Assembly (NCBI GenBank): GCA_002747455.1
Contig: PDPG01000045.1
Span: 1 to 64,000, forward strand
Direction: 5' to 3'
Source of the DNA: Pseudomonadota bacterium
GTDB lineage: Bacteria; Pseudomonadota; Gammaproteobacteria; Thiotrichales; Thiotrichaceae
DNA: 64,000 bases
Numbering within the stretch: the stretch's first letter is position 1; the number at the start of each line of letters is the position of its first letter. A program made the position numbers and the translations under genes. Shown piece by piece: positions 16,358 through 23,711 of the stretch. The notes beneath the pieces are model-generated. The model was not told the DNA's origin. It was given only the letters and a program-made list of their open reading frames with translations, and ran no database searches.

Positions 16358-17161
16358 TTACTCAGCAGGAGTTGCTTTTTCTTCAGTTGCAGCTTCTGGC
16401 TCTGCGACCGGCTCAGCATCTGCTGGCGCTTCGGCAGCAGGCTCAACTGCTTTTGCCATATCCTCAGCTGTTTTTGCAGCACTGACGTGACCTTCAACAA
16501 TACTGTCCGCCACCGCAGAGGCATATAACTGAATCGCACGAATCGCGTCATCGTTACCTGGAATTGGGTAATCGACCCCCTCAAGCCCATTGTTTGTATC
16601 AACAACACCGATAACAGGAATACCCAAAGTCACCGCTTCTTTAACAGCGATATCTTCATGTCCAACGTCAATAACGAACAGTGCATCCGGCAGACCGCGC
16701 ATGTCCTTGATACCGCCCAGACTCTTTTCCAGCTTTTCCAGCTCACGAGTCAGTGTCAGCACTTCTTTCTTACCGCGACTCTGCATACTGCCATCAGCAA
16801 TCATCTTTTCCAGATCGTGCAAACGACGAATGGACTGCTTAACTGTTTTGAAGTTTGTCAGCATACCACCCAACCAACGGTGGTTTACATAGGGCATCTT
16901 GGCGCGTACGGCTTCTTCACGAATTGTGTTCTGTGCTGCACGCTTAGTACCAACAAAGAGAATCTTGCCGCCTTTAGCTGCGAGCTTACCCGCAAAGTTC
17001 AACGCATCGTTAAACATTGGCAAGGTCTTTTCCAGGTTGATAATGTGAATTTTGTTGCGGTGACCAAAGATATAGGGCCCCATCTTTGGGTTCCAATAAC
17101 GAGTTTGGTGTCCGAAGTGAACGCCTGCTTCAAGCATTTGGCGCATTGTAACTTTTGCCAT
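16358..17161 (-). CDS. rpsB: 30S ribosomal protein S2
   Basis: [22 protein letters not shown]. Confidence 0.99.
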
Positions 17162-17176
17162 TTTGTAGTCCTCAAT

Positions 17177-17198
17177 GGGTTAAGCCTCCACAAACCCC
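17177..17198 (-). promoter_or_regulatory. Putative rpsB leader element (5'-GGGGTTTGTGGAGGCTTAACCC-3' on the minus strand)
   Basis: Closely resembles the recalled E. coli rpsB leader segment GGGATACGTGGAGGCATAACCCC, a S2 autoregulatory region. Confidence 0.6.
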
Positions 17199-17356
17199 AT
17201 CTAACAACCAAAAACTGTGTTTTTAGCACCCTGTTAAACGTGTCGATCTGTGTGAGTATTAGGGGTAAAATTACCCAGAAAAAATATGTTTGCGTTAAAC
17301 GCGCGCGCTTTATACCATGTTTGATTTACTAAATACAACCGGTAAACATAGACCTT

Positions 17357-18148
17357 ATGCCTGTCACGATAAAAACGCCTGAAGAGATCGAAAAAATGCG
17401 CACCGCCGGCAAACTTGCCGCGCAAGTGTTGGAGATGATTGAACCGCATGTTGTACCCGGCATAACGACCAACGAATTAAATGATATTTGCCACAACTTC
17501 ATCACTAATGAACAAGGCGCAATTCCCGCACCACTAAACTACGGCAATCCCCCTTTTCCAAAATCCATTTGTACCTCTGTTAATACACAAATCTGTCACG
17601 GTATTCCTAGTGACAAGAAGCTCAAAAAAGGCGATACCGTCAATATAGATGTGACAGTCATTAAAGATGGCTACCATGGCGACACCAGCCGCATGTTCCA
17701 TGTGGGTGATGTTGCACCACCAGCCAAGCGGCTGAGCCATATTGCCCAGGTCGCAATGTATATCGGTATCGACAAGGTTAAGCCGGGCGTCAAATTGGGC
17801 GATATTGGTCATGCTATTCAAACTTATGCGGAGGCAAACCATACCTCAGTGGTTCGAGAATACTGCGGACATGGCATTGGCAGTAAATTCCACGAAGAAC
17901 CACAGGTGCTGCATTATGGCAAGCCGAATACTGGCATGACGATTGAGGAAGGCATGACCTTCACGATTGAACCCATGATTAATCTCGGCAAATGCCACTG
18001 CCGGTTATTGGGGGACAACTGGACGGTTGTGACCAAAGACCGCTCCTTGTCCGCACAATGGGAACACACAATATTAGTCACCGCTTCCGGCTACGAAATA
18101 CTGACCTTGCGTGGCGAGGAAAAGGACTGGAAAAAAATGCTCCCATAA
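17357..18148 (+). CDS. map: Methionine aminopeptidase type I
   Basis: PEEIEKMRTAGKLAA; YCGHGIG; EPMIN; divergent from rpsB. Confidence 0.97.
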   Translation: MPVTIKTPEEIEKMRTAGKLAAQVLEMIEPHVVPGITTNELNDICHNFITNEQGAIPAPLNYGNPPFPKSICTSVNTQICHGIPSDKKLKKGDTVNIDVTVIKDGYHGDTSRMFHVGDVAPPAKRLSHIAQVAMYIGIDKVKPGVKLGDIGHAIQTYAEANHTSVVREYCGHGIGSKFHEEPQVLHYGKPNTGMTIEEGMTFTIEPMINLGKCHCRLLGDNWTVVTKDRSLSAQWEHTILVTASGYEILTLRGEEKDWKKMLP

Positions 18149-18474
18149 ACCAGATCGTTGGGTTCCACCATTGTGCTGCGTGATCCATTCAGTGTTTACG
18201 CAGCGGTGAGTACGCAAATTAAACCACTGTCTTACATCTGATACACTAACCGCCATTCTGTTGTAAAATAAACACACCGCTCCTCTGTAAATGCTTGACT
18301 CGCCTGTTTGATTGCTATAAGTTCGTCGGGAGGGCGGCTGTGCTTCAAACGGCTGCCAAATGCGCTAAAAACCGGCGCTTTCATGATGCCACGAGACCAA
18401 ATCATAAATCGGGGTGGGCATCAAGTTATCTTTAGTGCCGTTAGTGTTTTCTTATTCATAACTTTAGATTAGGG

Positions 18475-20154
18475 ATGGCCTTGGGCTTTTCGTGCTTATC
18501 AGGTTTTAATTTGTCATTTTCAAACTTAAATTTACAAGAGAGTTTTGTTACCTCCATTGAGGAAGCGGGTTATTTAGCACCGACAGAACTGCAAACCCAA
18601 CTTATTCCTTTAGTTGGAGATCGTAAAAGTGTATTAGTCTGGAGCCAATCGGCTGCCGGAAAGACGGGCGCTTTCCTGATACCCGCCGTCAACTACATTT
18701 TGGCCAATCCACTTGAGGAAAAACGGGGTGCGCGCATCCTGATACTGACTTCTCGTCGCGACCGAGTCAGCCAGATCAATTACACATTAAAGCGACTCAC
18801 CAGTAACCACAATATGCGCTTTGGCTTTATTGTCAGTGGCCGCCCCTATCAGCCACAAATGCGTTTAATGCGCCGCCCGCTGGATATGATGGTCGCCACA
18901 CCAGGACGCTTAAATGATTTAGTCGATAATAATAAGGCGGACTTCTCACAGCTCGAAATGTTGATCATTGATGACATGACCACCATTTATCAAAAAAATA
19001 TGCACGGGCTGATTGCCAAAATTCTTGACCAGGTTAAAAGCGACTGTCCAACGATTGCTTTTGTACGCCATAACGACGAAGTCACCCGTCTTGCCAGAGA
19101 ACTTTTCCCGGACGCTGTTGAAATTGAGGGTATTGTTGAAGAAGAGGAAGTGCTGCCAGATCACTTGGAGAGTGGCCGATCAATTATTCATACTCCGGTA
19201 CAAAGCAGGAATGACTTCCCCAGCCATAAACAACATGCTTATGTTGCGGATGACTACACGCACAAAATTGCCTTAATGGATCATTTCCTGGATGAATTTG
19301 CTGGCCAGCCAACCGTTATCTACACCTCAACCAACAAGGCCGCTATAACACTACAAGAAAATATGGCCAATCATGGTCATGTTGCCGGGCTTGCTCACCA
19401 GCTAAAAACACAGGATATTTCGCCAACCGATACGCCTACATTGATTGTTTCCGATCAGCAGGCAGTGAATTTACCTGAGGGCACTGATCAAAACATTATT
19501 CACTTTGACCTGCCCTATAAAACCGAAAATTACAGAAAACGGCTGGAATCTCATAGCGAAGCGCGTGAGTCTGCCATGATCATTATTGCTGATGGCAATG
19601 ACTATGATGCATTACGGCGTATTGAGAAAGCGATTGGCTCGCCTGTCACACAGCGCACCGCACCGGGACTTGAGCCACTAAATCCATTTATCAGCACCCA
19701 AAAGCACACGCTCAGAAAACCCAACGGAGCCAAGACCAGAGCAAAGTCTGGGCCGAGCAAGGACAATCAAAAACGCACGAATAAGGGTAGGACAACCCTC
19801 AGTCGTCAACAGGCAGAAAAGGGAACCGCTTCAGAGAATAAACGAGGTCGCACCACCAACACCAATGCGCGGAAAAATGGCCGCACCAACAACTCAACAT
19901 CAAGCGGTAACAAAGACCAAAGACGTCAACGCAAAGGACCTTATGGCCGCTTAAATGGTGGCGTACAACGTAAGCGTACTGAATTTGGTGTGAGCACTGT
20001 TGGCACGCAAAGCAACCAGCCGGCGAGAATGCCAGATAAAGACTGGGATAACGCCATTGCTGAAAATAAATCCGGCAAAGAGAAACGTGTTGTTATACGC
20101 TATAAGGATAGGAAGCGTACCTTATTAAGGGAAGACCCGAATGCCGATAGCTGA
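18475..20154 (+). CDS. DEAD-box-helicase-like protein with degenerate catalytic motifs and a basic low-complexity C-terminal tail
   Basis: Q-motif region (FSNLNL...GYLAPTELQTQLIP), Walker-A-like SQSAAGKT, TPGR retained; DEAD replaced by DDMT; motif VI replaced by KRLESHSEAR; start codon uncertain. Confidence 0.85.
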   Translation: MALGFSCLSGFNLSFSNLNLQESFVTSIEEAGYLAPTELQTQLIPLVGDRKSVLVWSQSAAGKTGAFLIPAVNYILANPLEEKRGARILILTSRRDRVSQINYTLKRLTSNHNMRFGFIVSGRPYQPQMRLMRRPLDMMVATPGRLNDLVDNNKADFSQLEMLIIDDMTTIYQKNMHGLIAKILDQVKSDCPTIAFVRHNDEVTRLARELFPDAVEIEGIVEEEEVLPDHLESGRSIIHTPVQSRNDFPSHKQHAYVADDYTHKIALMDHFLDEFAGQPTVIYTSTNKAAITLQENMANHGHVAGLAHQLKTQDISPTDTPTLIVSDQQAVNLPEGTDQNIIHFDLPYKTENYRKRLESHSEARESAMIIIADGNDYDALRRIEKAIGSPVTQRTAPGLEPLNPFISTQKHTLRKPNGAKTRAKSGPSKDNQKRTNKGRTTLSRQQAEKGTASENKRGRTTNTNARKNGRTNNSTSSGNKDQRRQRKGPYGRLNGGVQRKRTEFGVSTVGTQSNQPARMPDKDWDNAIAENKSGKEKRVVIRYKDRKRTLLREDPNADS

Positions 20155-20181
20155 TTCGGTGGCCGACAAAAGGATATAACA

Positions 20182-21585
20182 ATGCTGAGGGATTCAGTCG
20201 CAGCGCAGCGTGGGCAAGGATGGCTCATTGGCTTCGCCGCATTGGTGTTGATTGCAGCCGTTGCTGCGGTCGCCTACACCGTCATTTATTCAGAAAGAAA
20301 TAAGCAACTCCCCGAGCCTGCCTCCCTGCCACTCCAGCAAGTCTCTCTGAATGATGACGAGCTGCAATCTCTGGCTGAAACCCTTGTCACTGCTCATCTG
20401 AGTGAAAAAGGCAATGCAGCCAAGGAGGATCTGCAGGCACTGGGCAACACACTACGCAATCTCAATCACTCCCCACACCAAGCCGCCAAAACGGCTCTGC
20501 AACTATTGACGGATAATAACGTTGAGGATGCTGTCAAAACGCTTAAAGCACTTGCCTTGAATACTCAAGCAAAGCGGGATGCCGCGAAAATGTGGGTAGA
20601 TATTGGCAATATCAGCAACTTAAACGCAGAGCAACACGCGCTGGATTCCTACCAGAAATCTGTCACGCTAGACCCCGACAATATCAATGCATGGAATCGT
20701 ATTGGTCACTTAGCGCGTAAACGTAAACATTATGATGAAGCGGAAATCGCCTACCAGCACGTTACCCGTTTATCCGATGAGCTAAGTCAAACACAGGCAC
20801 TCTCATTTGCCAATTTTGGCTTATTGCACCAATCCCAAAACCAGTACGACAAAGCTATCACCTCATTTAGTGAAGCTTTGCGAATTAATGACAAAATCAA
20901 CAACAATTCTGGCGCCGCATCTAACCACGAAAATCTGGCAAGCTTGTATCGAACCACGCAAGACTACGCACGTGCTGAACAACACTATAAAGCGGCATTT
21001 GACTTATATAAATCGAGCCATGAAACCTCAAAGCTGATTGAAATACACTCCGCTCTAGGGAGTTTGTATCAGGGGATGCAACGGACACAAGATGCTTTGA
21101 AAGAGTACGAGAAAGCACTCGCTCTGAGTCAGGACAACCCCAACGAACGTGTCAGTGCGGGCTTGTATTCAAACATGGGGATATTAGCCCAGCGGAACAA
21201 CGACCCAGATAAGGCTGAAGCTTATTTTAAGCAGGCTCTGGCGCTTTATCAGGCGATTCAGCAAGACAAGGGTACTGCCGACCAGCTGAGTAATTTAGCA
21301 ATATTGGCACGGGGTAAAAAACAGTTTCAGCAAAGCGAAGCATTACACCAAAGGGCCATTGAGCTTTATCAGCAAGGCAATCACCCACAGGCAATTATCA
21401 ATCAGTATATTAATCTTGGTTTTTTATACACCGCATGGAATAAAAAGGACATGGCCTGCGACTATTGGCAAAAAAGTCTAAAGAACCTTACCGACTCCGC
21501 ATTCGCAATGCGCAAACAACGCATTGAAGACATTGTTAAGCGCGACTGTAAACCCCTACCGGCAGCCTCAAAATCTGAGGACTAG
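20182..21585 (+). CDS. Membrane-anchored tetratricopeptide repeat protein
   Basis: Single N-terminal TM (WLIGFAALVLIAAVAAVAYTVIY), multiple TPR units; 27 bp after previous CDS. Confidence 0.85.
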   Translation: MLRDSVAAQRGQGWLIGFAALVLIAAVAAVAYTVIYSERNKQLPEPASLPLQQVSLNDDELQSLAETLVTAHLSEKGNAAKEDLQALGNTLRNLNHSPHQAAKTALQLLTDNNVEDAVKTLKALALNTQAKRDAAKMWVDIGNISNLNAEQHALDSYQKSVTLDPDNINAWNRIGHLARKRKHYDEAEIAYQHVTRLSDELSQTQALSFANFGLLHQSQNQYDKAITSFSEALRINDKINNNSGAASNHENLASLYRTTQDYARAEQHYKAAFDLYKSSHETSKLIEIHSALGSLYQGMQRTQDALKEYEKALALSQDNPNERVSAGLYSNMGILAQRNNDPDKAEAYFKQALALYQAIQQDKGTADQLSNLAILARGKKQFQQSEALHQRAIELYQQGNHPQAIINQYINLGFLYTAWNKKDMACDYWQKSLKNLTDSAFAMRKQRIEDIVKRDCKPLPAASKSED

Positions 21586-23711
21586 CCTCTGCGCCACGCA
21601 TGAAATTTAGCCACATACTCCAATAATTTCTCCGGTGCATGTGCGCGCTTCCAGTGCCCTGCGGCAAACTTATTCGCTTCAGACATTGTTGGGTAGATGT
21701 GAATTGTGCCAAGTATTTTGCTTAAGCCAAGATTATGTTTCATGGCTAGGATAAATTCAGGAATCAAGTCGCCAGCATTTTTTCCTAGAATTGTCACCCC
21801 CAGAATTTTATCTTTACCCGGCACAGTGAGTACTTTCACTATCCCTTCATTACTACTATCCGCAATGGCACGATCAAGGTCATCTATTCCATACGTGGTG
21901 AGTTCATAGGCAATTCCCTGCTCGCCTGCCTCCTTTTCATTCAGGCCAACTCGTGCCACTTCAGGATCAGTAAATGTCGCCCAGGGAACCACACGATAAT
22001 CCACTTTAAAGCGCTTCACGCCACCAAACAGTGCATTGACACTGGCAAACCAGGCCTGATGTGCTGCAGCATGAGTCAACTGATAAGGGCCAGCCACATC
22101 ACCAACGGCATAAATGTTCGGGAAATTAGTGGTTAAAAAACTATCGGTATGAACCGTGCCTCGTGGACTAATCTCGACCCCCAGCTTTTCCAGACCAAAG
22201 CCCTCAACATTCGCTTCACGCCCCAAAGCCAGTAGTACGTGATCAAATGGGATTCGCCTGGTTGCTCCTTCATGCTCACACAGCAGAAGTTTTTGCCCTG
22301 CTTCGACAACAAATGCTTTGGCGTGGTGCGACAACAGCACCTTAATACCTTCTTCAACAAAACGGCTCTGCATCCATTTCGCAATATCCTCATCCTCACG
22401 ATTCATAATGCGTTCAGAGTGCTCAATCATTGTTACCGTGGATCCCAAGCGACTAAATGCTTGCGCTAATTCACAACCAATCGGACCACCACCCAAAACA
22501 AGTAAACGCCCCGGCAACCTATCAAGGTCCCACAAATTATCGCTGGTCAGGTAATCAATCTTGTCCAGGCCTGTTATCGATGGCACACGCGGGCGTGCAC
22601 CCGTGGCGATAATCATCGTTTTGGTCGTAAGTAGCTTGCCGTTTACCTCAACACGGTAAGGATCAATAATGCTGGCTTCCCCCGTGATCACCTCCACCCC
22701 CAGATCGGTATAACGCTCAATCGAATCATGTGGCTCAATTTTTTTGATCACTTCCTGTACACGCTGCATGACAACCTTAAAGTCAAAACTTGGCTGCATG
22801 TTGTTCAAGCCATACCGCTCCGCATGTTCCGCTTCATACATCGCCTTGGCCGTTCGGATGAGAGCCTTACTTGGCACACAGCCCGTATTCAAGCAATCGC
22901 CACCCATTTTATGCTTCTCAATTAAGCCCACTTTGGCTTTAACTGCCGCTGCAATATAAGCCGACACCAAACCACCTGCGCCAGCGCCAATCACCAAGAG
23001 GTTGTAATCAAAACGCTTGGGCTTGTCATAAGCCGCTAAGATTTGATTAGCGCGGATTTTATCCACCACTTTTTTAGCCACTATGGGGAAAATGCCAAGT
23101 AGTGCAAAAGCGATGAATAACTCCGGCGAAAGAATACCGGACAGCGAGTCAATCTTGCCCAGTTGTGTACCTGCATAGATATAAACAAAAGTCCCAGCCA
23201 ACATGCCAAGCTGACTCACCCATGCAAAGGTACGGGTGCGAATCGTCGTGAAGCCCATTAAGATATTTACTAAAAAGAATGGAAATAAAGGCACCAGACG
23301 CATTGCAAATAAGTACAACGCCCCTTCCCTATCCATGCCTTCGTTAATCACTTTTAGTTTATCGGCATAGCGACGTTGCAGGCTGTCCCGAAATAAATAA
23401 CGGGCCACCAAAAAGGCCAATGTAGCGCCGATAGTGCTGGCAAAAGACACAATCACAACCCCTACAGGCAAGCCAAATAATGCGCCAGCCAAGGGCGTCA
23501 TAATCGTGGCTCCCGGTAAGGATAGCGCTGTCACCACCACATAAGCCACAAAGAACATCAGCAATGTTAGGGCTGTATTTTCTTGATAATAATGATTGAA
23601 GGCTTGTTGCTTTGCTTTAATAAAATCCAGAGAAAGATACTGCTGTAAATCACACAAGAAAAAAATTGCAACCAACAGCACCATCACACCAAACACTATT
23701 TTTTTATTCAT
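21582..23711 (-). CDS. TVP38/TMEM64 (VTT/DedA-like) membrane domain fused to a pyridine nucleotide-disulfide oxidoreductase
   Basis: N-terminal ~230 aa multi-TM with SLPGATIMTPLAGALFG; C-terminal GAGAGGLVSAYIAAAVKAKVGLIEKHKMGGDCLNTGCVPSKAL redox motif and AVGDVAG. Confidence 0.93.
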   Translation of the reverse strand: MNKKIVFGVMVLLVAIFFLCDLQQYLSLDFIKAKQQAFNHYYQENTALTLLMFFVAYVVVTALSLPGATIMTPLAGALFGLPVGVVIVSFASTIGATLAFLVARYLFRDSLQRRYADKLKVINEGMDREGALYLFAMRLVPLFPFFLVNILMGFTTIRTRTFAWVSQLGMLAGTFVYIYAGTQLGKIDSLSGILSPELFIAFALLGIFPIVAKKVVDKIRANQILAAYDKPKRFDYNLLVIGAGAGGLVSAYIAAAVKAKVGLIEKHKMGGDCLNTGCVPSKALIRTAKAMYEAEHAERYGLNNMQPSFDFKVVMQRVQEVIKKIEPHDSIERYTDLGVEVITGEASIIDPYRVEVNGKLLTTKTMIIATGARPRVPSITGLDKIDYLTSDNLWDLDRLPGRLLVLGGGPIGCELAQAFSRLGSTVTMIEHSERIMNREDEDIAKWMQSRFVEEGIKVLLSHHAKAFVVEAGQKLLLCEHEGATRRIPFDHVLLALGREANVEGFGLEKLGVEISPRGTVHTDSFLTTNFPNIYAVGDVAGPYQLTHAAAHQAWFASVNALFGGVKRFKVDYRVVPWATFTDPEVARVGLNEKEAGEQGIAYELTTYGIDDLDRAIADSSNEGIVKVLTVPGKDKILGVTILGKNAGDLIPEFILAMKHNLGLSKILGTIHIYPTMSEANKFAAGHWKRAHAPEKLLEYVAKFHAWRRG

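Follow-up and report, generated by a model that had tools for sequence, protein, structure and literature searches.

Can a DEAD-box protein whose catalytic motifs have been replaced still serve a purpose, and if so, which one? The question is raised by an uninterrupted open reading frame at 18475..20154 (+) of the window, the whole 64,000-nt stretch of DNA analysed here, which encodes 559 amino acids followed by a stop codon. The composite site of DEAD-box proteins is built from the Q motif, Walker A and DEAD of the first RecA domain (RecA1) and from the arginine fingers and motif V of the second (RecA2); motif III couples the two domains, and motifs Ia, Ib, QxxR and V hold the RNA. The initial annotation took the protein for a maintained, non-unwinding DEAD-box descendant in which the catalytic motifs had been lost.

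The two-RecA DEAD-box layout was readily recovered. RecA-like domain 1 (residues 15-218; 18517..19128, +) and RecA-like domain 2 (residues 253-400; 19231..19674, +) are joined by an inter-domain linker (19129..19230, +) that varies in length and is predicted to be disordered for most of its extent. A basic C-terminal tail with predicted disorder follows (19675..20151, +). In Pfam, the DEAD family (PF00270) matched residues 37-194 with 79.6 bits, and no helicase C-terminal family matched at E values up to 1. The best NCBIfam model was SrmB (NF008394), at 160.9 bits against a curated cut-off of 507, and the RhlE model (NF007882) scored 122 bits against a cut-off of 743. An AlphaFold2 model computed from a 31-row family alignment gave a pLDDT near 90 for both RecA domains, with linker and tail disordered; at a pTM of 0.45, the relative placement of the domains is not fixed by the model. 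The best Foldseek matches in the PDB were the DEAD-box cores of Hera, DDX21, DbpA and DDX17, with E values down to 2e-22. Two RecA-like domains and a helicase-like structure were thus predicted.

What has been lost and what has been retained became apparent when 46 orthologues were aligned with the nearest intact (SrmB/CsdA-type) group, represented by 28 proteins that keep the canonical motifs throughout. All the motif changes initially annotated (SQSAAGKT, TSRRD, IIDDMT, the missing SAT, VSDQ and KRLESHSEAR) are present in the window protein and recur in the 46 orthologues. Specifically, motif II (DDMT, 18970..18981, +) reads DD[L/M/F][T/S/A] in place of DEAD in 46/46, so that the two Asp residues are invariant and the catalytic Glu and last Asp are lost. 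SAT is absent from all 46, its place being taken by VRH in the window protein (19063..19071, +). The QxxR helix in RecA2 is about seven residues shorter in every orthologue, and HRIGRTGR (motif VI) was destroyed in each of them; in the window protein it reads KRLESHSEARE (19537..19569, +), the arginine-finger positions are gone, and the first Arg alone remains from the motif. Across the order, none of these elements (catalytic Glu, SAT, QxxR region and the two arginine-finger positions) persists as a conserved position.

The statement that the catalytic motifs were lost held for these elements and failed for others. Invariant in 46/46 are the Q motif with its upstream Phe (GY..PT.LQ...IP; in the window protein GYLAPTELQTQLIP, 18568..18609, +), GKT of Walker A, the two Asp residues of motif II, motif Ib TPGR (18898..18909, +), the Asp of motif V and the first Arg of motif VI. 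The motif V remnant (19453..19458, +) consists of this Asp followed by Gln or Glu. Several positions were fixed anew. AxTGxGKT became [S/T]Q[S/T]A[A/S]GKT in nearly all orthologues (SQSAAGKT, 18643..18666, +), with Ala for the upstream Gly in all; motif Ia, formerly TPTREL, became the clade-specific and nearly invariant TSR[R/K][D/E]R (TSRRDR, 18748..18765, +); and the GG motif became [S/G]GRPY. The catalytic losses are concentrated in RecA2 and in residues coupling the two domains, and the ATP-binding half-site was altered rather than lost, because GKT and the Mg-binding Asp are kept.

The mean pairwise identity of RecA1 was 0.67 among the orthologues and 0.67 in the intact group, indicating a constraint about as strong as in working helicases, whereas that of RecA2 was 0.50 versus 0.67, indicating that this domain, its fold kept and its motifs V and VI eroded, was partly released. 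Both domains showed Nei-Gojobori dN/dS values of approximately 0.01-0.07 for pairs with measurable dS, several pairs being saturated. This strong purifying selection bears out the claim that the protein is maintained. In the tail, selection was looser (dN/dS up to approximately 0.18). The Lys/Arg/Asn/Thr/Gly-rich character described for the tail was confirmed by its composition, with 67% K/R/N/T/G/S/Q in residues 401-559 and 40 K+R against 14 D+E. In addition, the tail carries two peptides that the initial annotation had passed over, RRQRKGPYGRLNGGVQRKR (19921..19977, +) and VVIRYKDRKR (20089..20118, +), which are conserved in most family members as RRQRKGPYGRLNGGxQRKR and VVIRYKxKKR. No second copy of the tail was found elsewhere in the source genome.

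Of the order's 63 genomes, 60 carry the gene as a single copy (E ≤ 1e-34); we infer the order to be Thiotrichales. A contig-end fragment in G031 adds a 61st genome, and the two genomes with no match are 80% and 89% complete; among the good-quality genomes, 45 of 46 carry the gene. The named matches belong to Leucothrix, Cocleimonas and Thiotrichaceae. When the family profile was searched against 369 genomes of the class, three of which are from the order, scores of at least 728 bits were obtained for order members only, the next best being 292 bits. The 27 of these next-best relatives that were inspected all had intact motifs. No pseudohelicase was recovered outside the order in the class sample, nor at E ≤ 1e-85 in a sample of 399 genomes drawn from the phylum, many of which belong to this class.

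In phylogenetic trees, the altered proteins formed one clade with 100/100 support, on a long stem of 1.7-2.3 changes per site. Support for its union with the SrmB/CsdA-type proteins was moderate (74/60 to 87/60), and grouping with RhlE was rejected (AU p = 0.003). The ancestor was thus likely of the SrmB/CsdA type and not RhlE, a placement that is moderately supported and lies on a long branch. The protein therefore combines helicase ancestry with a conserved loss of catalytic residues, as expected of a pseudohelicase under the pseudoenzyme criteria applied to Utp25 and Deinococcus PriA.

No canonical SrmB/CsdA-type copy was found in the order, where matches to an intact-type query were at most 50% identical; five top matches placed in the tree all fell in the RhlE clade. 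Intact SrmB/CsdA-type members of different families share approximately 60-76% identity in the pairs compared. The simplest reading, likely rather than shown given the long stem, is that the order's SrmB/CsdA-type gene turned into the pseudohelicase. Canonical DEAD-box genes were found in 62/63 of the order's genomes; the remaining one, G071, is 74% complete. The source genome itself has canonical orthologues of DeaD and RhlB, two more DEAD-box genes and, as regards the question of a canonical RhlE elsewhere in the genome, an RhlE (L001).

A separate observation in the same genome (G000, contig C25) concerns a fast-evolving RhlE-like paralogue, L004:1402-2811. Its motif II is DEVD and its motif Ib ATPAR for ATPGR, and its remaining motifs look intact.

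The gene neighbourhood was compared between genera. In Leucothrix and two related genera, the pseudohelicase gene comes after map, with rpsB-tsf-pyrH divergent from it where the contig extends far enough. Downstream, in the window, lies a co-directional gene for a TPR-repeat protein with an N-terminal hydrophobic segment (20182..21585, +), starting 27 bases past the pseudohelicase stop; genomes of Leucothrix also have this gene downstream, as do some but not all members of the two related genera (it is absent in G010). In other genera the pseudohelicase gene is located beside radA and near argJ, secA and ffh (in g3, radA and ffh without argJ and secA), and in g7 it lies at yet another location. 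A conserved operon partner was ruled out, since the neighbours change between genera, and no conserved linkage to any helicase gene was seen in the neighbourhoods compared. Because the neighbourhood differs in this way, the pseudohelicase is a stand-alone gene whose context names no partner.

Other features were noted nearby. The only Rfam match in 17000-22000 was the t44 RNA (RF00127; 17179-17274, -; 74.8 bits) upstream of rpsB, an ordinary ribosomal-protein leader unrelated to the pseudohelicase. On the minus strand, 21582-23711 encodes a 709-aa fusion of a VTT (DedA-like) membrane domain with a pyridine-nucleotide-disulphide oxidoreductase, which also occurs in other Leucothrix genomes; its stop overlaps that of the TPR gene by 4 bases.

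The explanation that we favour, with a probability of roughly 0.7, is that the protein is a pseudohelicase with an RNA- and nucleotide-binding half-site but no composite ATPase site; without catalysis of its own, it would serve as an RNP scaffold, a chaperone for RNA or a cofactor for helicases. In this view, ATP-driven unwinding would have disappeared a single time from an SrmB/CsdA-type helicase, in the order's common ancestor, after which the protein would have been fixed in a new role. RecA1 appears to keep its nucleotide contacts (the Phe and Q motif, GKT and the motif II Asp) and its RNA-backbone contacts (the Ia Arg and Ib TPGR). With these parts in place, it probably remains able to bind RNA and perhaps Mg-nucleotide. 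RecA2 appears to retain the fold without motif III coupling, the QxxR RNA contact or the arginine fingers, so closure of the two domains around ATP and RNA into an active site is not expected; ATP would then be unable to drive the protein to clamp and bend RNA. The basic tail would strengthen the hold on RNA, and a partner probably docks on its two conserved peptides. The loss of ATPase and the binding of RNA are predicted properties, and a role in ribosome assembly or RNA turnover is plausible, the former being a guess from ancestry.

Three other explanations were weighed against this one. Gene decay, or a mistake in sequencing or assembly, would be suggested by the altered motifs themselves and by nothing more; with the same residues in dozens of independent genomes, open frames and dN/dS well under 0.1, this reading has practically no probability and is refuted by the orthologues and by dN/dS. 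The conservation of the DD motif II and of the motif VI loss in the orthologue alignment likewise shows that this is not the decay of one copy. It is improbable, although far less so than decay, that the protein is still an ATPase, which would hydrolyse slowly or upon stimulation by a partner with the help of DD[L/M/F][T/S/A] and of residues that re-evolved in RecA2. Such an enzyme is favoured by the set of elements invariant in 46/46 (GKT, the two Asp of motif II, the Q motif, the Asp of motif V and a single Arg of motif VI), which exceeds what RNA binding alone would need. Against it stand the losses shared across the order, of the motif II Glu, of SAT, of QxxR and of the two arginine-finger positions, and the relaxation of RecA2 to 50% identity. 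Some residual ATPase might nevertheless persist, since Asp is a conservative replacement for the Glu of motif II and Walker A is intact.

A further proposal, which is a special case of the favoured pseudohelicase reading and overlaps with it in probability, is that the protein regulates canonical helicases, as a non-catalytic paralogue pairing with RhlE, RhlB or DeaD or competing with them for RNA or degradosome sites. Canonical DEAD-box genes are available for this in nearly all genomes of the order, and a cofactor role has been proposed for the eukaryotic protein Utp25 (PMC9539457). However, no conserved linkage to helicase genes was found, and with canonical helicases near-universal, co-occurrence says little; we regard this specific role as rather unlikely.

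In E. coli, SrmB acts in ribosome assembly and requires its DEAD motif, and its conversion from DEAD to AAAD leads to a cold-sensitive, deletion-like phenotype (PMC6736130). Since SrmB needs DEAD, an inactive descendant would not simply take over the job of SrmB. Only tentatively do we propose the broader picture, in which the order swapped an SrmB/CsdA-type helicase for a non-catalytic descendant, the half-site serves as a ligand switch, the protein has a fixed place in ribosome assembly or in RNA turnover, and the family is the first bacterial DEAD-box RNA pseudohelicase family. The literature collection searched contained no report of a bacterial DEAD-box pseudohelicase, and nothing on Thiothrix DEAD-box proteins or on a change from Glu to Asp in motif II. 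The family amounts to a natural experiment, with one loss event, dozens of genomes, a near-fixed RecA1 and a relaxed RecA2, which makes it testable how useful a DEAD-box core is without unwinding and which half matters. Moreover, the label "DEAD/DEAH box helicase", as suggested by the Pfam match alone, would mislead across an order.

Pseudoenzymes are well known among kinases. Among helicases, the closest precedent is Utp25/Def, a pseudohelicase of DEAD-box descent in the eukaryotic SSU processome, studied in yeast; its authors list only one pseudohelicase proposed before it, Deinococcus PriA (PMC9539457). Utp25 resembles the Thiotrichales protein in having two RecA-like domains, DEAD-box descent, loss of DEAD and other motifs, a disordered extension and conservation (PMC9539457). 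According to its description, Utp25 lacks DEAD and keeps no more than motif Ia and parts of the Q, IV, V and VI motifs, whereas the present family has fixed the Q motif, GKT, DD and TPGR; the extension is N-terminal in Utp25 and C-terminal here (PMC9539457). PriA of Deinococcus radiodurans offers a second parallel, as motif loss is group-wide (Deinococcus-Thermus) and nucleic-acid binding is kept, but it is a DNA replication-restart helicase and not a DEAD-box RNA helicase (PMC4504706). In addition, the Walker A Lys is replaced by Arg in DrPriA, in contrast to the intact GKT of the Thiotrichales pseudohelicase, and inactivity has been measured for PriA and is predicted here (PMC4504706). The nearest relatives in sequence are gammaproteobacterial SrmB/CsdA-type helicases (for example, L049, L050, L071 and L076; NF008394, NF053636). 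They share with the pseudohelicase the DDxxHK linker motif and a PGLEP after RecA2, but carry all canonical motifs and are approximately 30% identical to the window protein; the likeness to RhlE is that of a DEAD-box protein with a C-terminal extension.
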